A stretch of DNA of 64,000 bases, from assembly GCF_025642155.1 (NCBI RefSeq), contig NZ_CP106798.1, forward strand, positions 4,340,001-4,404,000, given 5' to 3'. Shown piece by piece: positions 2,747 through 59,866 of this stretch. Made by a program: the position numbers and the translations under genes. Positions within the stretch are counted from its first letter, which is position 1, and every line of letters starts with the position of its first letter. A model generated the notes under the pieces. The model made no database searches. It was not told the origin of the DNA and worked only from the letters and a program-made list of their open reading frames with translations. Origin of the DNA: Streptomyces sp. HUAS 15-9 (GTDB lineage: Bacteria; Actinomycetota; Actinomycetes; Streptomycetales; Streptomycetaceae).

Positions 2747-5700
2747 TCAGCGCACTCCAGCCGGCAGCTCCGCCTCGGCCTCCCGCTCCACCATGGTGCG
2801 CAACGGCCCGTCCATGGCAGCCAGTTCGGCGTACGGTCCGTGCTGCACCACGTGTCCCTCGTCCAGCACGATCACGTCGTCCACCGCGTCGAGTCCGGCG
2901 AGACGGTGGGTGATGAGCAGCGTCGTACGGCCTTCGGTGGCGGCCAGCAGATCGGCGGTGAGCGCGTCGGCGGTGGGCAGATCCAGGTGCTCGGCGGGCT
3001 CGTCGAGCACGAGGACCGGGAAGTCGGCGAGCAGCGCTCGGGCGAGCGCCAGCCGCTGCCGCTGTCCGCCGGACAGCCGCGCGCCGTGCTCGCCGACGAG
3101 CGTGTCGAGTCCGTCGGGCAGTCCGTCCGCCCAGTCGAGCAGCCGGGCCCGTGCCAGCGCGTCCCGCAGTTCCGCCTCGGTCGCGTCCTTCTTCGCGAGC
3201 AGCAGGTTCTCGCGCACGGAGCTGTCGAAGAGGTGCGCGTCCTGGGCACACAGCCCTACGAGCCGCCGTACGTCGTCGCCGTCCAGGGCGTGCGCGTCCA
3301 CGCCGGCCAGCGTGTAGGAGCCCGCGCTCGGGTCGAGGAATCGCAGCAGCACCTGGGCGAGGGTCGTCTTGCCGGACCCGGACGGCCCGACCACGGCGAC
3401 CCGGCGCCCTTCCTCCAGTGTCAGATCGAGCCCGGTGAGCGCCTCCCGGTGCTGCCCGGAGTACCGGGCGGCCAGCCCCTTCACCACGACCGGGAACGGT
3501 GACGCGGGCGCCTGGCGCGGCCGCTCCGGCTCCCATACGGGCTCGGGGGCGTCCAGGATCTCGTACACACGCTCCGCGCTCCGGCGCACCCGCTGCCGGT
3601 AGCGCACGGCGACCGGCAGCCCGAGCACGGCCTCGAAGGCGGCCAGCGGGATGAGGACGACCACGGCCATCGCCACCCCGTCCAGCCGGCCCGCGGCGAC
3701 GGCCTGGGCGCCCAGCAGGGCGGTGACCGCCACGGTCAGGCCGGAGATCAGCGCGGTGAGTCCATCGCCGAGCGCGGTGGCGGTGGCGGCGCGCGAGGCG
3801 ATCCGAGTGAGGGTGCCGTCGGCCCGCCGGGCCGCGTCGGTGCGGGCGGGCAGCGCGCCGGCGACCGTCAGTTCGGCGGTGCCGGTGAGCAGGTCGGTCA
3901 CTCGCGTCGCGAGGTCTCCGCGGGCGGGCGCCAGCCGTCGCTCGGCGCGCCGCGCCACGGCGCCGGTCAGCAGCGGTACGCCGATCCCGGCCGCGAGCAG
4001 TCCCGCGGCGAGCGCGGCTCCGGCCCCGGGCAGAAGCCAGGCGGTGAAGGCCACGGATCCGGCGGACACCGCCGTCGCGACCCCCGCGGGCAGCAGCCAG
4101 CGCAGCCAGTAGTCCTGCAGCGCGTCCACGTCGGCGACGAGCCGGGACAGCAGGTCGCCCCTGCGGGCGGTACGGAGCCCGGCGGGGGCCAGCCGCTCCA
4201 GCCGCCGGTACACGGCGACCCGGGTGTCGGCCAGCATCCGCAGTACGGCGTCGTGCGACACCAGCCGCTCCGCGTACCGGAACACGGCCCGCCCGATTCC
4301 GAAGGCCCGCGTCGCCGTCACGGCCACCATCAGATACAGCACGGGCGGCTGTTGCGAGGCACGCGAGATGAGCCACCCGGAGGTGGCCATCAGTCCGACG
4401 GCACAGCCGAGCGCCAGGCTCCCCAGCAGCAGCGCGAGGGCGAGGCGTCCACGCCGGGGGCCGGCGAGATCGCGGACACGGGCGAGGAGTTGCCCCTTGG
4501 ACCTCGTGAGGCCCGCTTCGGGCCCGTCCTCGGCAACACCCTCGGCCGGCACCGCCCCGACGGAGCGCACGTCCCGGGACCCGGCAACGGCGGAAGCGGG
4601 AGAGGCGGGGGCCACGGTGGCGGAGGGCTCGGCTGCCTCCAGCCGCACCACGCGGTCGGCGACGCCGAGCAACGCCGGCCGGTGCACGACCAGCAGGGCG
4701 GTCCGCCCCACCGCCAGCCGCCGCACCGCCGTCACGACCTCGGCCTCGGTCGCCCCGTCGAGCGCGGCCGTCGGCTCGTCCAGCAGCAGTACGGGCCGGT
4801 CGGCGAGGAACGCCCGGGCCAGCGCGAGCCGTTGCCGCTGCCCGGCGGAGAGCCCGGCCCCGTCCTCGCCGAGCACGGTCCCGGCCCCCTGGGGCAACGC
4901 GTCCACGAACTCCAGGGCCCCCGCGTCACGCAGCGCCCGGCGCACGGCGTCGTCGTCCGCGTCGGGACGCGCCAGCCGTACGTTCTCCGTGATCGTCCCG
5001 GCGTACAGATGCGGCCGCTGCGGCACCCAGGCGATGCGCGAGCGCCACCGCTCCAGGTCGATGTCGGCCAGATCGGCTCCCCCGATCCGCACCCGGCCCT
5101 CACTGGGCCGTACGAATCCGAGCAGGACGTTCAGCAGCGTCGACTTGCCCGCACCGCTCGGCCCGACCAGGGCGACGGTCTCTCCGGGTTCGACGGCGAA
5201 GGAGACGTCCGTGACGGCATCCGTGGACCGCCCGGGATACCGGACCGTCACGCCTTCGAAGGCGAGGGTCCCCCAGGGCACCGACCCGGTCCCGGACTCG
5301 GGTACCGGCGTCTCCAGTACGGCGAAGATCTCCTCGGCGGCGGCAAGTCCCTCCGCCGCCGCGTGGTACTGCGCTCCCACCTGGCGCAGCGGCAGATAGG
5401 CCTCGGGCGCCAGCACCAGGATGAGCAGTCCGATGTACAGGTCCATGTCGCCATGGACGAGCCGCATACCGATCGTCACCGCGACCAGCGCGACCGACAG
5501 CGTCGCGAGCAACTCCAGTGCGAAGGAGGAGAGGAAGGCGATCCGCAGGGTCCGCATGGTCGCCTGGCGGTACTCACCGGTGATTCGGCGGATGGAGTCG
5601 GCCTGCGCCTTGGCACGCCCGAACACCTTCAGGGTGGGCAGCCCCGCGACGACGTCCAGGAAGTGCCCCGAGAGCCGGGACAGCAGCCGCCACTGACGGT

Positions 5701-6268
5701 CCATCCGGGACTGAGTGGCCCAGCCGATCAGCACCATGAACAGAGGGATGAGCGGAAGGGTGCCGACGATGATCGCCGCCGACATCCAGTCCTCGGTGAC
5801 GATCCGCGCGAGCACCGCGGCCGGTACGACCACCGCGAGCCCCAACTGCGGCAGATAGCGCGAGAAGTAGTCGTCGAGGGCATCGACACCACGCGTGGCG
5901 AGGGTGACCAGCGAACCGGTCCGCTGTCCGCTCAGCCACCCGGGGCCCAGTGCCGCGGCGCGCGCCAGGAGGCGTCCGCGCAGCTCGGACTTGACGGCCG
6001 CACTCGCCCGGTGCGCGGCAAGCTCGGTGAGCCAGGAGACCAGCGCACGGCCAGCGGCGACGGCCACCAACAACACCAGGGGGGTGCGTAGTTCACTCGC
6101 CGACTGGCCGTGCTGGAAGGCGCCGACCACCACTTCGGCGATGAGCATGGCCTGGGCGATGACGAGTCCGGCGCCGAGGGCACCCAGGGCGACGACCGCC
6201 ACCAGGAAGAGTCGCGTGGCGCGGGCGTAGCGCAGCAGACGCGGATCGATCGGTTTCACGTGAAACAT
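2747..6268 (-). CDS. cydDC: fused CydD-CydC ABC transporter for cytochrome bd assembly
   Basis: A 1173-residue fusion of two complete ABC exporters (each membrane domain plus nucleotide-binding domain), the arrangement usual in actinobacteria. In E. coli CydDC exports cysteine/glutathione-type reductants and is needed for heme incorporation into cytochrome bd. The first half has Walker A GPSGAGKST near residue 369 and signature LSAGQRQ near 474; the second has GPSGSGKTT near 960 and LSGGQRQ near 1063. Linker residues of about 555-600 are low-complexity. The start codon ATG begins inside a parS site, so the protein starts MFHVKP. Third gene of cydA-cydB-cydDC, 63 bp after cydB; that gap holds the rest of the first parS site and a second complete one. 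Confidence 0.92.
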   Translation of the reverse strand: MFHVKPIDPRLLRYARATRLFLVAVVALGALGAGLVIAQAMLIAEVVVGAFQHGQSASELRTPLVLLVAVAAGRALVSWLTELAAHRASAAVKSELRGRLLARAAALGPGWLSGQRTGSLVTLATRGVDALDDYFSRYLPQLGLAVVVPAAVLARIVTEDWMSAAIIVGTLPLIPLFMVLIGWATQSRMDRQWRLLSRLSGHFLDVVAGLPTLKVFGRAKAQADSIRRITGEYRQATMRTLRIAFLSSFALELLATLSVALVAVTIGMRLVHGDMDLYIGLLILVLAPEAYLPLRQVGAQYHAAAEGLAAAEEIFAVLETPVPESGTGSVPWGTLAFEGVTVRYPGRSTDAVTDVSFAVEPGETVALVGPSGAGKSTLLNVLLGFVRPSEGRVRIGGADLADIDLERWRSRIAWVPQRPHLYAGTITENVRLARPDADDDAVRRALRDAGALEFVDALPQGAGTVLGEDGAGLSAGQRQRLALARAFLADRPVLLLDEPTAALDGATEAEVVTAVRRLAVGRTALLVVHRPALLGVADRVVRLEAAEPSATVAPASPASAVAGSRDVRSVGAVPAEGVAEDGPEAGLTRSKGQLLARVRDLAGPRRGRLALALLLGSLALGCAVGLMATSGWLISRASQQPPVLYLMVAVTATRAFGIGRAVFRYAERLVSHDAVLRMLADTRVAVYRRLERLAPAGLRTARRGDLLSRLVADVDALQDYWLRWLLPAGVATAVSAGSVAFTAWLLPGAGAALAAGLLAAGIGVPLLTGAVARRAERRLAPARGDLATRVTDLLTGTAELTVAGALPARTDAARRADGTLTRIASRAATATALGDGLTALISGLTVAVTALLGAQAVAAGRLDGVAMAVVVLIPLAAFEAVLGLPVAVRYRQRVRRSAERVYEILDAPEPVWEPERPRQAPASPFPVVVKGLAARYSGQHREALTGLDLTLEEGRRVAVVGPSGSGKTTLAQVLLRFLDPSAGSYTLAGVDAHALDGDDVRRLVGLCAQDAHLFDSSVRENLLLAKKDATEAELRDALARARLLDWADGLPDGLDTLVGEHGARLSGGQRQRLALARALLADFPVLVLDEPAEHLDLPTADALTADLLAATEGRTTLLITHRLAGLDAVDDVIVLDEGHVVQHGPYAELAAMDGPLRTMVEREAEAELPAGVR
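6253..6266. other. parS site, perfect GTTTCACGTGAAAC
   Basis: Exact match to the Streptomyces ParB-binding 14-mer. It overlaps the cydDC start codon, so the protein begins MFHVKP. The next perfect parS is 38 bp away centre to centre. Confidence 0.95.
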
Positions 6269-6290: not shown

Positions 6291-6304
6291 GTTTCACGTG
6301 AAAC
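6291..6304. other. parS site, perfect GTTTCACGTGAAAC
   Basis: Exact ParB-binding 14-mer in the cydB-cydDC gap. It forms a close pair with the site at 6253-6266, a possible nucleation point for ParB spreading. Confidence 0.95.
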
Positions 6305-6331
6305 ATGGTGAACACCCCTCCTGCCGCAGAC

Positions 6332-7336
6332 TCAGTGCGCGGGTTCGGCTATGTGCTGTGTGCCGATCCGCTTGCGAAACACCCAGTACGTCCAGCCCTG
6401 GTAGAGCAGCACGATCGGCGTGGCGATCCCTGCGCACCAGGTCATGATCTTCAAGGTGTACGGACTCGACGAGGCATTGGTGACCGTGAGGCTCCAGTCA
6501 CCGTTGAGCGAGGACGGCATGACGTTCGGGAAGAGCGACAGGAAGAGCATCGCCACGGCGGCCACGATCGTGACGCCGGACAGGGCGAACGACCATCCCT
6601 CACGGCCGGCCTGGTTGGCCACCAGGGCGGCGACCAGTGCGACGACCGCCACGATCATGGCCGCCAGGCTCTTGCCGTCACCGCTGTCGATCTGCGTCCA
6701 CAGCAGGAAGAACACTGCCAGCACGGCCGTGACGAGACCGACCCTCAGCGCGAGCTTCCGCGCCCGCTCCCGGATGTCCCCGACCGTCTTGAGCGCGGTG
6801 AACACCGCGCCGTGGAAGGTGAACAGCGTCAGCGTCACCAGGCCGCCGAGAAGCGCGTACGGGTTCAGCAGGTCCCACACGCTACCGACGTACTCGGCGT
6901 GCTCGTCGATCTTCACACCCCGCACGATGTTGCCGAAGGCCACACCCCACAGGAGGGCGGGGATCAGCGAGCTCCAGAAGATCGCGGTCTCCCAGTTGCG
7001 CTGCCAGTTCTCCTCGGGCCGCTTCGCCCGGTACTCGAAGGCGACACCCCGGACGATCAGGCTGACCAGGATGACCAGCAGCGGCAGATAGAAGCCGGAG
7101 AAGAGAGTGGCGTACCACTCGGGGAAGGCGGCGAAGGTCGCGCCACCTGCCGTGAGCAGCCACACCTCGTTACCGTCCCAGACAGGGCCGATGGTATTGA
7201 TCAACACCCGCTTCTCGGCCCGGTTCCGGGCGAGAAGCTTGGTGAGGATGCCGACCCCGAAGTCAAAACCCTCCAGGAAGAAGTAGCCGATCCACAGGAC
7301 GGCGATCAGGACGAACCAGACGTCGTGAAGTTCCAT
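6332..7336 (-). CDS. cydB: cytochrome bd ubiquinol/menaquinol oxidase subunit II
   Basis: A 334-residue polytopic membrane protein. The N-terminus MELHDVWFVLIAVLWIGYFFLEGFDFGVG is the conserved CydB opening, and GPVWDGNEVWLL follows near residue 50. CydB partners CydA in the high-affinity terminal oxidase that reduces O2 to water under low oxygen and does not pump protons. The start has a GGGAG ribosome site 7-8 bases upstream and lies 18 bp after the cydA stop, so the two are co-transcribed. Downstream, two perfect parS sites separate or overlap the start of cydDC. Regulation is most likely by Rex at the operator upstream of cydA. Confidence 0.95.
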   Translation of the reverse strand: MELHDVWFVLIAVLWIGYFFLEGFDFGVGILTKLLARNRAEKRVLINTIGPVWDGNEVWLLTAGGATFAAFPEWYATLFSGFYLPLLVILVSLIVRGVAFEYRAKRPEENWQRNWETAIFWSSLIPALLWGVAFGNIVRGVKIDEHAEYVGSVWDLLNPYALLGGLVTLTLFTFHGAVFTALKTVGDIRERARKLALRVGLVTAVLAVFFLLWTQIDSGDGKSLAAMIVAVVALVAALVANQAGREGWSFALSGVTIVAAVAMLFLSLFPNVMPSSLNGDWSLTVTNASSSPYTLKIMTWCAGIATPIVLLYQGWTYWVFRKRIGTQHIAEPAH

Positions 7337-7354
7337 GACTGCAGCTCCCTCGGC

Positions 7355-8863
7355 CTAGTACGAGAAGGCCATCGGCTTGTCGGCGTCACGGACATCGCCG
7401 CCGATCTTCGTGGGCGGGTTGAGGTCGGCCTCGGTGAGCTCGGGCGGGCCGGCCTTGACGTACTTCACCAGCAGCTTGACCTCGACCACGGCGAGGATCG
7501 CGTACAGCAGGGTGAGGACGGTCATCGAGGTGAGGACCTCGGCCTGGGAGACGCCGGGGGAGACCGCGTGGCGGGTCTGCAGGACGCCGTAGACGACCCA
7601 GGGCTGACGGCCCATCTCGGTGAAGATCCAGCCCCAGGAGTTGGCGATCAGCGGGAAGGCCAGGGTCCAGATCGCGATGCGCCAGGACCAGGTGGTGAGC
7701 TTCGGGCCGAGGGCCTTGTTCTTGAACAGGACCAGATGCGGCACTTCGTCTTCGCTCACCCGCAGGTGCTGCGGCAGCATGAACTTCTTCCGGGTCAGCC
7801 AGAGTCCGGCCAGACCGATGGCGAAGGACGCCATGCCGAAGCCGATCATCCAGCGGAAGGACCAGAAGGTGACGGGGATGTTCGGCCGGTAGTCACCGGG
7901 TCCGAACTTCTGCTGCTCGGACTTGTTGACATCGTTGATGCCGGGCACAAAGGAGCTGAAGTCGTCGTTCGCGAGGAAGGACAGCACGCCCGGCACCTCT
8001 ATCGCGACGGTGTTGTGGCCCTTCTCCACATCGCCGTACGCGAAGATCGAGAACGGTGCCGAGTCCTGACCGTCCCACAGCGCCTCGGCGGCGGCCATCT
8101 TCATCGGCTGCTGCCTGAACATGACCTTGCCGAGGGTGTCACCGCTGACCGCGGTGAGCAGACCGGCGATGACCACGGTGATCAGACCGAGCCGCAGCGA
8201 GGTCTTCATCTCCGTGATGTGCTTCTTGCGGGACAGGTGGTAGGCGGCGATGCCGACCATGAAGGCGCCGCCGGTCAGGAAGGCCGCGGAGAGCGTGTGG
8301 AAGGCCTGGGCCAGCGCGGTGTTCTGGGTCAGGACGTGCCAGAAGTCGGTGAGCTCGGCACGCCCCTTCGCCTTGTTGATCCGGTAACCGACGGGGTGCT
8401 GCATCCATGAGTTGGCCGCGAGGATGAAGTACGCCGACAGGAACGTGCCGATCGAGACCATCCAGATGCAGGCCAGGTGGATCTTCTTGGGCAACTTGTC
8501 CCAGCCGAAGATCCACAGACCTATGAAGGTGGACTCGAAGAAGAAGGCGATCAGGGCCTCGAAGGCCAGCGGTGCGCCGAAGATGTCACCGACGAAGCGT
8601 GAGTAGTCGGACCAGTTCATGCCGAACTGGAACTCCTGCACGATGCCGGTGACGACGCCCATCGCGATGTTGATCAGGAAGAGCTTGCCCCAGAACTTGG
8701 TCGCTCTGAGGTACTTCTCCTTTTCTGTGCGTACCCACGCCGTCTGCAGGCCGGCCGTGAGGGCCGCCAGCGAGATCGTCAAGGGCACGAACAGGAAGTG
8801 GTAGACGGTGGTGATGCCGAACTGCCAGCGCGCCAGTGTCTCCGGCGCCAAAGCCAAGTCCAC
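7355..8863 (-). CDS. cydA: cytochrome bd oxidase subunit I
   Basis: A 502-residue membrane protein with the heme-bearing features of CydA: an early His in ITTVYHF that matches the b595-ligand position, GIVQEFQFGMNWSDYSRFVGD, and the GRQPW signature (TEMGRQPWVVYG). The quinol-binding loop is the short, actinobacterial type. The GTG start at 8863 is preceded by AAGGAG at 9 bases; a longer frame to 8893 begins with TTG and would read through this ribosome site, so it was rejected. First gene of the cydA-cydB-cydDC operon. A perfect Rex operator lies 84-99 bp upstream of the start. Confidence 0.95.
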   Translation of the reverse strand: MDLALAPETLARWQFGITTVYHFLFVPLTISLAALTAGLQTAWVRTEKEKYLRATKFWGKLFLINIAMGVVTGIVQEFQFGMNWSDYSRFVGDIFGAPLAFEALIAFFFESTFIGLWIFGWDKLPKKIHLACIWMVSIGTFLSAYFILAANSWMQHPVGYRINKAKGRAELTDFWHVLTQNTALAQAFHTLSAAFLTGGAFMVGIAAYHLSRKKHITEMKTSLRLGLITVVIAGLLTAVSGDTLGKVMFRQQPMKMAAAEALWDGQDSAPFSIFAYGDVEKGHNTVAIEVPGVLSFLANDDFSSFVPGINDVNKSEQQKFGPGDYRPNIPVTFWSFRWMIGFGMASFAIGLAGLWLTRKKFMLPQHLRVSEDEVPHLVLFKNKALGPKLTTWSWRIAIWTLAFPLIANSWGWIFTEMGRQPWVVYGVLQTRHAVSPGVSQAEVLTSMTVLTLLYAILAVVEVKLLVKYVKAGPPELTEADLNPPTKIGGDVRDADKPMAFSY

Positions 8864-14550: not shown

Positions 14551-16347
<1,797 letters not shown>

Positions 16348-16410
16348 CTACGCCGGCATTACCCGGTAACAGGTTCAGCGGTCGACGCAGCGATTTCCGT
16401 CTCGGCCGGC

Positions 16411-16424
16411 GTTTCCTGTGAAAC
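16411..16424. other. degenerate parS-like site, two mismatches
   Basis: GTTTCCTGTGAAAC; the outer half-sites match parS but the two central bases differ. Lies in the variable arm of the TPP riboswitch, 22 bp centre to centre from the next site. Confidence 0.35.
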
Positions 16425-16432
16425 ATCACTCA

Positions 16433-16446
16433 GTTCCACGTGAAAC
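16433..16446. other. parS-like site, one mismatch, inside the TPP riboswitch
   Basis: GTTCCACGTGAAAC, one base from the consensus and the same variant as at 9129. It lies in the DNA encoding the P3a arm of the thiC riboswitch. Confidence 0.6.
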
Positions 16447-16579
16447 ATCGCGAATACGGAGGTCAGCGCCCTCTCAGCCCGGTGCTCCGAGCTCCCGCGT
16501 GTGCAAAGGTGCCTCCACGCTAGCGTCAATTCGGTCGCGGTGAACAGAGGGCCCCTACCGTTCTTGCAATGATCTGGCG

Positions 16580-18073
16580 GTGACCACGACACAGCAGTAC
16601 CCCTACCCGCCGCCCGAGCCGCCGCGCCGACCCGGCCCCGGACAGCGCGGCGGACACGACCACGAGCGCCACGGTGCCAGCGATGAGCACGGCCACGGGT
16701 CCGGCCATGGACAGGCCCCGGGACACGGGCACGGTGCCGGAAACAGCGGCGGCCACGGCCACTCGCACAGCCACAGCCATGGCCCCGCCGCGCCCGTCTC
16801 CCAGCATCTGCGCAAGGTCATCGCGGCGATCCTGATCCCGTTCACCGCGGCGGTCGTGGTCGGACTCGTCGTGCTCTGGCCCGGTGGAGCCCCGCCGCAC
16901 CAGCGCACGGGAGTCGGCTTCGACCGGCAGACGCAGCAGGCCACGGTCACCGTGGTCGTCGAGGTGAGCTGCAAGTCGGTGAACGCCTCGGGGCAGGCGC
17001 CGACGGGCGACACCCCCACCGCAAGGGATAATTCCGCCCAGAAGGAGGAGAACAGCACCTGCAAGAAGGCGACGATCCAGGTCGACACCGGCAAGGACAA
17101 GGGCCGTACGTTCACGGAGATCGTGCAGCCGGACCAGTCACGGCAGTTGCACGAGGGCGAGAAGGTTGTGGTCGCCTACGAGCCCTCGGCACCCAAGGAG
17201 CTGCAGTACTCGGTCGCCGATGTGGACCGGAAGTTCCCGATGGCGCTGCTGGCCGGCATCTTCGCGCTCGCCGTCGTGGTGGTGGGCCGATTGCGCGGCG
17301 TCATGGCGCTGGTCGCGCTGGCCGTCAGCTTCCTGGTGCTGACCCTCTTCATCCTGCCCGCGATCCTGCAGGGCTCGAACCCACTCGTCGTGGCGGTGGT
17401 CGGGTCGAGCGCCATCATGCTGATCGCGCTCTATATGTGCCACGGTCTGTCGGCCCGCACATCGGTCGCGGTGCTCGGCACGCTGGTGTCGCTTCTGCTG
17501 ATCGGCATCCTGGGCTCGGAGTTCATCGACTGGGCCGCGCTGACGGGCAACACCGACGACAACACCGGTCTCATCCATGGCCTGTATCCGTCGATCGACA
17601 TGAGCGGTCTGCTGCTGGCCGGCGTCATCATCGGTTCACTCGGCGTCCTGGACGACGTGACCGTGACCCAGACCTCGGCCGTGTGGGAACTGCACGAGGC
17701 CAATCCGTCGATGGGCTGGCGCGGACTGTACCGGGCGGGGATCCGCATCGGCCGTGACCACATCGCGTCCGTCGTCAACACGCTCGTACTCGCCTATGCC
17801 GGTGCCGCGCTGCCGCTGCTGCTGCTCTTCTCGATCGCGCAGAGCAGCGTGACGAGCGTCGCCAACAGCGAACTGGTGGCGGAGGAGATAGTGCGCACCC
17901 TGGTGGGCTCGATCGGCCTGGTCGCCTCGGTGCCGGTCACCACGGCCCTGGCCGCCCTCGTGGTGTCGGCCGACAGGCCGGGACAGGGGGCAGGGAAGGC
18001 GGGGGCGGGGAAGCCTGCCGAGGTCCCGTCCGCCGCGGCGCGCGGTGGACGGGGCCGGCGCCGCAAGAGGTGA
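16580..18073 (+). CDS. YibE/F family polytopic membrane protein with His-rich N-terminus
   Basis: A 497-residue protein. Residues 1-70 form a cytosolic or exposed Pro/Gly/His-rich tail with repeated HG and HS dipeptides (HGHGAG, GHGHSHSHSHG), which could bind metal. A first membrane segment is at about 80-98, then an extracytoplasmic domain with two cysteines (about residues 134-175), then seven or so membrane helices from about 215 onward. The FPMALLAGIFALAVVVVGRLRG and DDVTVTQTSAVWEL regions are typical of YibE/F proteins. GTG at 16580 is the only reasonable start. Biochemical function of the family is unknown. Divergent from thiC. Confidence 0.8.
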   Translation: MTTTQQYPYPPPEPPRRPGPGQRGGHDHERHGASDEHGHGSGHGQAPGHGHGAGNSGGHGHSHSHSHGPAAPVSQHLRKVIAAILIPFTAAVVVGLVVLWPGGAPPHQRTGVGFDRQTQQATVTVVVEVSCKSVNASGQAPTGDTPTARDNSAQKEENSTCKKATIQVDTGKDKGRTFTEIVQPDQSRQLHEGEKVVVAYEPSAPKELQYSVADVDRKFPMALLAGIFALAVVVVGRLRGVMALVALAVSFLVLTLFILPAILQGSNPLVVAVVGSSAIMLIALYMCHGLSARTSVAVLGTLVSLLLIGILGSEFIDWAALTGNTDDNTGLIHGLYPSIDMSGLLLAGVIIGSLGVLDDVTVTQTSAVWELHEANPSMGWRGLYRAGIRIGRDHIASVVNTLVLAYAGAALPLLLLFSIAQSSVTSVANSELVAEEIVRTLVGSIGLVASVPVTTALAALVVSADRPGQGAGKAGAGKPAEVPSAAARGGRGRRRKR

Positions 18074-22525: not shown

Positions 22526-22566
22526 CCGGTTCGGGGACGCCCGCCCGGGGTCCGGCTACGTACAAC

Positions 22567-22605
22567 GGACGGTCCGAGCCTCCCCCCTCGTGGCTCGGAC
22601 CGTCC
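22567..22605 (+). terminator. terminator after the ptpA operon
   Basis: A perfect 14-bp inverted repeat (22567-22580 with 22592-22605) and an 11-nt loop, 42 bp after the stop of the PLP enzyme gene. Confidence 0.8.
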
Positions 22606-22753
22606 CCGGTTCTGCGCGCGAAGAACCGCGCGAACAAGGCTAGTTGACTCTGTGTCAGTGTCCAATCACCGTAGCGACAGAGACCTATCGACTTATTTAT
22701 AGTTGGGCCCTGCCTGGGGGCCGGAGAAGGGCAGGGAAAGGGGAGGGCGCGCC

Positions 22754-23712: not shown

Positions 23713-23726
23713 GTTTCACGTGGAAC
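23713..23726. other. parS-like site, one mismatch
   Basis: GTTTCACGTGGAAC, differing at position 11 only; it lies 22 bp upstream of the NUDIX start codon. Confidence 0.6.
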
Positions 23727-28104: not shown

Positions 28105-28142
28105 AGGAGGTGGCCTGTTTCACGTGAAACAGGCCACCTCCT
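28105..28142. terminator. parS-centred 38-bp palindrome acting as bidirectional terminator
   Basis: A perfect 38-bp palindrome centred on a perfect parS. The arms outside the 14-mer are 12 bp each (AGGAGGTGGCCT and its complement). It lies between the ends of convergent genes, so the RNA of either strand can fold into a long hairpin. Confidence 0.8.
28117..28130. other. parS site, perfect GTTTCACGTGAAAC
   Basis: Exact ParB site forming the centre of the 38-bp palindrome at 28105-28142. Confidence 0.95.
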
Positions 28143-46160: not shown

Positions 46161-46198
46161 CTGTGGGGGGATGTTTCACGTGAAACATCCCCCCACAG
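46161..46198. terminator. parS-centred 38-bp palindrome, bidirectional terminator
   Basis: A perfect 38-bp palindrome centred on parS, with 12-bp arms outside the 14-mer (CTGTGGGGGGAT and complement), 13 bp after the stop of the LppU-like gene; cca converges from the other side. Confidence 0.8.
46173..46186. other. parS site, perfect GTTTCACGTGAAAC
   Basis: Exact ParB site at the centre of the 46161-46198 palindrome; paired with the site 46 bp to the right. Confidence 0.95.
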
Positions 46199-46209
46199 TC
46201 CACTCGGCC

Positions 46210-46241
46210 CGGGGTCATGTTTCACGTGAAACATGACCCCG
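46210..46241. terminator. parS-centred 32-bp palindrome, terminator of cca
   Basis: A perfect 32-bp palindrome around a second parS (arms CGGGGTCAT and complement), 11 bp after the cca stop on the minus strand. Confidence 0.75.
46219..46232. other. parS site, perfect GTTTCACGTGAAAC
   Basis: Exact ParB site at the centre of the 46210-46241 palindrome. Confidence 0.95.
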
Positions 46242-58765: not shown

Positions 58766-59866
58766 TCAGTCCTCCGCCTCCTCGGACAGATCGTCCTGGA
58801 CGCCCCGCTGCAGGACCGGCCCCTCGCCCGGGGCGAGCGTGCCGAGGATCCGCTCAAGGTCATCCATCGAGGCGAACTCGACGGTGATCTTACCCTTCTT
58901 CTGGCCCAGGTCGACCTTCACCCGCGTCTCGAAACGGTCCGACAGACGCGTCGCGAGATCGCTCAGTGCCGGGGAGACCCGGGCACCGGCACGCGGTCCC
59001 TTGGCCCGCTGTGTCGTCTGGGGCCGCGATCCCATGAGGGTCACGATCTCCTCCACGGCCCGCACCGAGAGCCCCTCGGCCACGATCCGGTGGGCCAGGC
59101 GGTCCTGCTCCTCCGAATCCTCGACGGACAGCAGTGCGCGGGCATGTCCGGCGGAGAGGACTCCGGCGGCGACCCGGCGCTGGACCGCGGGGGAAAGCTT
59201 CAGCAGACGCAGGGTGTTGGAGACCTGCGGACGGGAGCGCCCGATGCGGTCCGCCAGCTGGTCGTGCGTGCAGTTGAAGTCCTTCAGCAACTGGTCGTAG
59301 GCAGCGGCTTCTTCCAGCGGGTTCAGCTGGGCTCGGTGCAGGTTCTCCAGCAGCGCGTCCAGGAGGAGCTTCTCGTCCTCCGTGGCCCGCACGATCGCCG
59401 GGATCGCCTCGAGGCCGGCCTCACGGCAGGCACGCCAGCGCCGCTCACCCATGATGAGTTCATAGCGGGCGGGGCCGAGCTGCCGTACGACGACGGGCTG
59501 GAGGAGACCGACCTCCTTGATGGAGGTGACCAGTTCCTTCAGCGCCTCTTCGTCGAAGACCTCACGCGGCTGGCGCGGGTTCGGTGTGATGGACTCGAGG
59601 GGGATCTCGGCGAAGTGGGCGCCCACCGGAGGCGCGGGCGTCTCCGCGAAGCCGTTCATCGCCGGCTCCTCGGTTTCATGTGAAACGGGCGGCAGCGTGG
59701 CCACCTTCGCCGCGGCCACCCCACGGTCGCTCGACAGCACCGGAACCGCTGCGGGGGACGCGGGAGCCGCACCACCCAACGCGGTCTGGGCCGGTGTCCT
59801 CTCCGTCGGGGCAGCGGGAATCAGTGCGCCGAGTCCACGGCCCAGACCCCTCCGTCGCTCGCTCAC
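58766..59866 (-). CDS. parB: chromosome-partitioning protein ParB
   Basis: 366 residues, a CTP-dependent DNA clamp that loads at parS. The N-terminal [10 protein letters not shown] motif contacts ParA; the ParB/CTPase domain has [29 protein letters not shown] and the GERRWRA box; the HTH ([24 protein letters not shown]) reads parS; the C-terminal dimer domain follows [21 protein letters not shown]. The linker (about residue 61) contains VSHET, encoded by a one-mismatch parS. The GTG overlaps the parA stop (GTGA) with GGAGGGG as ribosome site. Confidence 0.97.
59673..59686. other. parS-like site, one mismatch, inside parB
   Basis: GTTTCATGTGAAAC, changed at position 7, read in frame in parB as V-S-H-E-T. 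Confidence 0.55.

Follow-up and report, generated by a model that had tools for sequence, protein, structure and literature searches.

Why would a sequence resembling parS, the chromosomal site of the partition protein ParB, lie inside the leader of a thiamine gene, and for what is it kept there? The initial annotation had suggested that a partition site was placed in the insertion-tolerant variable arm of the thiC TPP riboswitch. We compared this leader with its counterparts in related genomes and with other parS sites of the window (the whole 64,000-nucleotide stretch of DNA analysed) and of neighbouring loci. Many Streptomyces carry a parS in the P3a arm of thiC whose transcript appears to act as the hairpin of that arm, one short sequence thereby seemingly doing two jobs.

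The predicted thiC aptamer and the parS sites of the window

The features on which the analysis draws are the following.

14551..16335, minus strand: thiC (Radical SAM ThiC, PF01964), from the open reading frame and Pfam
16328..16508, minus strand: predicted TPP aptamer (THI element) in the thiC leader, RF00059 at 41.1 bits, E 6.9e-7
16375..16471, minus strand: stretch between GGGCTGAGA and ACCTG that holds the P3a arm; counterpart extracted in 223 of 223 leaders
16456..16459, minus strand: 5' strand of the P3a base helix (CCGT), read from the sequence; counterpart columns 99.5% paired
16398..16401, minus strand: 3' strand of the P3a base helix (ACGG), read from the sequence; counterpart columns 99.5% paired
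16433..16446, minus strand: site 1, putative parS, GTTTCACGTGGAAC in the thiC sense, one mismatch
16411..16424, minus strand: site 2, GTTTCACAGGAAAC in the thiC sense, two mismatches to parS; pairs with site 1 at 12 of its 14 positions
16580..18073, plus strand: YibE/F-like neighbour (PF07907, from Pfam), joined with thiC for the tree
58766..59866, minus strand: ParB partition protein, open reading frame with TIGR00180 at 204.9 bits

The aptamer lies upstream of a thiamin gene, as identified by the ThiC family match, and its sequence GTAGGGA directly precedes the thiC start codon. Because of this position, the riboswitch is likely to act by direct masking of the ribosome site. The covariance match, obtained by the leader scan that the initial annotation had called for, spans all 105 model positions and includes the core blocks, but its score falls short of the curated cut-off of 54.3 bits, and a scan of the window at the Rfam gathering threshold does not list the thiC aptamer. 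The match leaves 77 nt of the variable arm unaligned, and this long arm is probably the reason for the low score; the leader would then be a case of a long P3a arm that pushes a riboswitch below the Rfam cut-off. In the available text of PMC2258182, P3a is described as an optional stem-loop beside the conserved UGAGA, found in 552 sequences of that study; it corresponds here to the arm that separates UGAGA from P2. The base-helix pairing given above was measured over 37 distinct arms, each 106 nt long.

Both parS-like sites lie inside the P3a arm with their starts 22 bp apart, as the initial annotation had described them. Site 1 (GTTCCACGTGAAAC on the plus strand) is one mismatch from the parS sequence GTTTCACGTGAAAC, and site 2 (GTTTCCTGTGAAAC on the plus strand) is two mismatches from it. 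The window holds 17 parS matches at up to three mismatches, compared with 0.95 in shuffled sequence (largest shuffle 4). A whole-genome scan gave 21 sites at up to one mismatch, all inside C1:4326388-4531810. Site 1 is therefore a member of a cluster of about 205 kb, presumably the oriC-proximal one.

Several of the other sites have particular surroundings. A one-mismatch parS, GTTTCATGTGAAAC, at 59673-59686 falls within the parB open reading frame. Two perfect parS, at 6253-6266 and 6291-6304, border the predicted start codons of two divergently oriented reading frames (2747-6268, minus strand; 6305-8410, plus strand), the second of which had no Pfam match at 1e-5. Perfect parS commonly occur in close pairs, with a few tens of bases between them (for example, in genomes G225, G157 and G349). 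The window also contains the Scr3920 small RNA at 22564-22689 on the minus strand (149.4 bits).

Occurrence and conservation of site 1

We assembled 223 thiC leaders, comprising that of the window, 22 records (21 Streptomyces and 1 Kitasatospora) and 200 further loci from 199 other genomes of the genus, one genome contributing two. We excluded 58 of 80 retrieved loci, which belong to other genera. An RF00059 search over 392 genomes, cut to its best matches, did not enter the thiC counts.

A parS at up to one mismatch is present in the P3a arm of 100 of the 223 leaders and in none of 22,300 shuffled arms. Together with the excess of sites in the window, this count led us to reject a chance origin of the sites. 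The other 123 arms contain no parS even at up to four mismatches, and the distribution is bimodal, with no arm in the set having a best site of two, three or four mismatches. Some leaders almost lack the arm, the shortest being 27-34 nt, and P3a is therefore dispensable. Among other TPP riboswitches, none of the 30 loci examined carries a parS at up to one mismatch. A further thiC with a TPP leader, on a 146-kb contig of one genome (L190, at G025:C3), has an arm without parS.

A tree of thiC joined with its YibE/F neighbour could be built for 163 of the 223 rows, the other 60 having too little sequence. The presence of parS, in 78 of these rows, requires three changes on the tree, compared with a mean of 54.5 and a minimum of 43 in 200 shuffles of the labels. 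The parS-bearing rows form three clades of 72, 4 and 2, with the site in every row, and the remaining 85 rows, outside these clades, have no parS in the arm. In the large clade (support 0.94) site 1 is conserved in 72 of 72 leaders. In the comparison of many leaders, which the initial annotation had proposed as a check, the site is fixed in one large clade and missing from more than half of the leaders. Arms with a single site have a near-identical frame of 71-74 nt (one of 81 nt), including those of the two small clades. Because the small groups share this frame, one old gain followed by losses, or exchange between lineages, is as possible as three gains.

We aligned site 1 in 71 leaders of the large clade, excluding one with a shifted offset. 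Ten of its 14 positions are without change, and the variation is confined to positions 8 (9 changes), 9 (2), 11 (12) and 4 (1), never two at once. The adjacent spacer columns 17-20 change 8, 17, 15 and 15 times, 55 in total. One GTTTCAC half is invariant across the clade, with the exception of a single leader. Of the 72 first sites, 5 match parS perfectly, 67 have one mismatch and none has two. Permuting the columns gives a mean of 14.0 of 72 rows with two or more mismatches (minimum 8), and of 6,000 simulations on the tree, the 224 retained because their frequencies matched all contained double variants.

The same limit is seen at control parS sites outside the arm. In 139 neighbouring loci, sites with 0, 1, 2 and 3 mismatches number 163, 87, 4 and 37, compared with 0, 0, 4 and 25 in shuffles (140 x 20 kb). 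Two-mismatch matches in these loci are thus no commoner than in shuffled sequence, and site 2 sits at that level. Because the arm has no two-mismatch first site and the controls behave alike, the arm stays within the mismatch limit characteristic of parS at these loci. This comparison supports the initial annotation in placing a parS in the P3a arm; the site is under selection and kept by a whole clade, and ParB would presumably load there.

A contrary reading is that the arm sites are decayed parS, kept as an RNA hairpin only and no longer used by ParB. It could draw on the scarcity of perfect sites, which make up 15 of 100 arm first sites compared with 164 of 253 control sites, and on the variants at positions 8 and 9, which are nearly missing from control parS (2 of 253). 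However, neither positions 6 and 7 of the loop nor the stem pairs 1-14, 2-13, 3-12 and 5-10 vary in the 71 leaders, with no compensatory swap, and slow decay would give best sites of two to four mismatches, which no arm contains. We regard decay as very improbable.

The one-mismatch form accounts for 85 of the 100 arm first sites and 89 of the 253 control sites, and the arm sites may therefore bind ParB less well than the controls. This could look like a tuned affinity if ParB at the leader acted as a roadblock that regulates thiC and couples thiamine synthesis to segregation, in line with the suggestion of the initial annotation that bound ParB could slow transcription there, and the site does lie within the presumed transcribed leader. 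Yet a preference for one mismatch is not special to the arm, as 63 of the 65 loci with the control site corresponding to window position 23713 show one mismatch there, which weakens this preference as a sign of tuning; moreover, the 123 leaders without the site still have thiC and the riboswitch core. Regulation of thiC by ParB is accordingly an improbable account of the site. The 23713-23726 parS precedes a plus-strand NUDIX gene and is nearly fixed as GTTTCACGTGGAAC, in 62 of 65 assigned loci. The variant GTTTCACATGAAAC occurs 32 times in the 100 parS-bearing arms (for example, L114, L128 and L199) and once among the 253 control sites, an excess that is explained by neither a DNA nor an RNA role.

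Site 2 and pairing in the transcript

Site 2 follows different rules. The 67 arms of at least 89 nt include 56 with a partner segment that pairs with site 1 at 11 or more of 14 positions, compared with 84 of 3,350 shuffled tails, the partner in each arm being the segment chosen for best pairing. The starts of site 1 and its partner are separated by 17-34 nt. Only 12 of the 67 are within one mismatch of parS, and because the other 55 are beyond it, we rejected the possibility of two ParB sites of equal rank. The two-site description of the initial annotation is thus upheld for site 1, which behaves as parS, and needs revision for site 2, which is mostly not parS and looks like the segment with which the site 1 transcript pairs.

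In the 37 distinct arms of 106 nt, sites 1 and 2 are opposed in one long helix. Over all 24 columns this helix is 83.3% paired, with 82 A.C cells, compared with at most 49% when the strands are slid by one to three columns; its four central pairs are mostly unformed (A.C or other in most rows). Where both partners of a pair vary, 200 of 222 cells hold a standard pair, compared with a mean of 185.7 and a maximum of 197 in 2,000 column shuffles, a statistic that does not remove relatedness. Pair 36-62 is AT in 20 arms, GC in 10, GT in 6, AG in 1 and AC in none, and pair 40-58 is AT in 17, GT in 10, GC in 10 and AC in none. Across the 67 long arms the key pair is likewise AT in 26, GC in 22, GT in 16 and other in 3, and never AC. 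In the arms with C at the fourth position of site 2, the hairpin of site 2 itself is broken (pair 62-69, CA in 10) and the G of site 1 is paired (GC in 10), which indicates that the long helix is favoured over the site 2 hairpin. Leader L126 has the mirror change, in which position 4 of site 1 is C and the partner has G. Comparison of the leaders thus shows not only the conservation and one-mismatch limit of site 1 but also the predicted pairing and its compensation.

Complementarity of this kind need not come from selection on RNA. Template-switch correction between inverted repeats yields compensatory-looking changes, and the two sites are close together; on this account DNA-level repair would make them complementary. 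Such repair should leave G.T and A.C equally frequent on the sense strand, whereas the tree events in the long helix outside its centre number 24 for G.U and 6 for A.C, or 24 to 2 once end pair 45-53, whose pairing is doubtful, is omitted. This excess points to the sense transcript, and we consider template switching a most improbable source of the pairing. For the site 2 hairpin alone, the G.U bias is not significant (12 to 7, p 0.36).

Alifold draws an arm helix in all four arm classes tried, and the minimum-energy fold of the window leader includes the site 1-site 2 hairpin; as a single sequence, the whole fold of that leader is no better than those of shuffles (z -0.78), which makes single-sequence folding uninformative here. 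In the 33 one-site arms the parS pairs with itself, and 26 of these have at least four contiguous standard pairs flanking it.

These observations suggest a mechanism. Selection on the DNA would keep site 1 as a chromosomal parS in the apex of P3a, and the transcript of the palindromic site would fold on itself to form the P3a stem. Because the palindrome would itself make this stem, a parS need not disturb the aptamer. In many leaders of the large clade, which have a longer arm, the partner and the parS transcript would pair into a rod, and the partner could dispense with ParB recognition provided that pairing holds. RNA structure is, we infer, what the pairing of sites 1 and 2 is kept for. 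We assign a probability of about 0.7 to this explanation as a whole, a DNA-selected parS doubling as the P3a stem with a pairing partner in long arms, on the strength of sequence comparison. The alternative in the initial annotation, an insertion that the riboswitch tolerates, holds insofar as P3a does tolerate insertions; the parS seems to be more than that, because its palindrome supplies the P3a helix.

The control sites bear on how much of this could arise from selection on the DNA alone, with the parS merely tolerated by the riboswitch and the RNA pairing a by-product of the palindrome. P3a is optional, as the shortest arms attest, and control parS vary on one side too. The one-sided variants of site 1 number 12 events at position 11 and 1 at position 4. 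On the window plus strand, changes at positions 4 and 11 number 6 and 0 at the control site corresponding to window 9129, and 1 and 3 at the one corresponding to 23713 (control sites were assigned to orthologues by flanking sequence, 138 of 250 being unassignable). We have therefore downgraded one-sided variation as proof of RNA selection. Read in the NUDIX sense, the variant at the 23713-like site is again the G.U form, at a single site.

Control parS also lie in inverted repeats. Among the 250 parS of the 139 control loci, 23 are flanked by five or more contiguous pairs, compared with 0.19% of 27,800 random positions. Of the 15 other window sites at up to one mismatch, three tip perfect inverted repeats with 9 to 12 further pairs, and these directly follow stop codons within gaps of convergent genes.

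28105..28142, no strand assigned: parS-tipped inverted repeat after the stop of a GNAT gene, between convergent genes; 12 contiguous flank pairs
46161..46198, no strand assigned: parS-tipped inverted repeat after the stop of a small plus-strand frame (identified by eye); 12 contiguous flank pairs
46210..46241, no strand assigned: parS-tipped inverted repeat after the stop of the CCA tRNA nucleotidyltransferase gene (minus strand); 9 contiguous flank pairs

It is possible that the three repeats are parS-tipped terminators; a simple scan for T-run terminators called none at them. The repeats at control parS count in favour of a by-product. Against a by-product stands site 2, which is mostly no longer a parS (12 of 67 within one mismatch) yet pairs with site 1 in a compensatory manner, with A.C rare outside the centre of the helix. 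On balance, selection on the DNA alone seems unlikely, and we prefer the reading in which the parS also serves as the P3a stem.

A tentative extension is that Streptomyces parS are often double-coded, loading ParB as DNA and tipping functional hairpins as RNA, in the P3a arm and in terminators between convergent genes. The centromere would then consist partly of transcribed RNA structures, and ParB loading at thiC and control of a thiamine gene would reside in one sequence.

Comparison with known systems

If the proposed explanation is true, the thiC arm illustrates one way in which a bacterium can accommodate a dozen centromere sites or more where genes are densely packed, with the palindrome as a permitted RNA helix, and it offers a case, open to testing, in which selection for DNA-protein binding and for RNA structure acts simultaneously on one short sequence. 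Titles and the opening parts of abstracts on parS and ParB, riboswitches, terminators and Streptomyces thiC, a body of literature in which subscription papers are mostly not covered, contain no description that we found of a parS within a riboswitch. According to the available parts of these reports, nearly all ParB peaks in S. venezuelae lie on parS (PMC4852455), 17 parS are bound in that species (PMC12511625, which names the deposited ChIP-seq data set E-MTAB-14547) and S. coelicolor ParB shifts parS DNA in gels (PMC12207404); the word thiC does not occur in the main text of the last report, as available.

The thiC site resembles the chromosomal parS of the Streptomyces ParABS system in sequence, in its place in the oriC-proximal cluster and in the mismatch limit that it shares with neighbouring sites. 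It differs in lying within a folded, conserved regulatory RNA, whose helix it seems to supply, and in being mostly of the one-mismatch form, although one control site is likewise. With the half-parS sites of Pseudomonas aeruginosa, as described in the available text of PMC10419367, it has in common the GTTTCAC half that is nearly invariant in the large clade, but here the other half is also within one mismatch in 72 of 72 first sites. The leader agrees with the TPP riboswitch RF00059 in its thiC context and the position of P3a between UGAGA and P2, and it has the core blocks, although at a sub-cut-off score; it departs from the typical member in this score and in a P3a that seems to be built from a predicted binding site for a DNA-binding protein. 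The parts are known, and, as far as the titles and abstract openings covered go, their combination is new.
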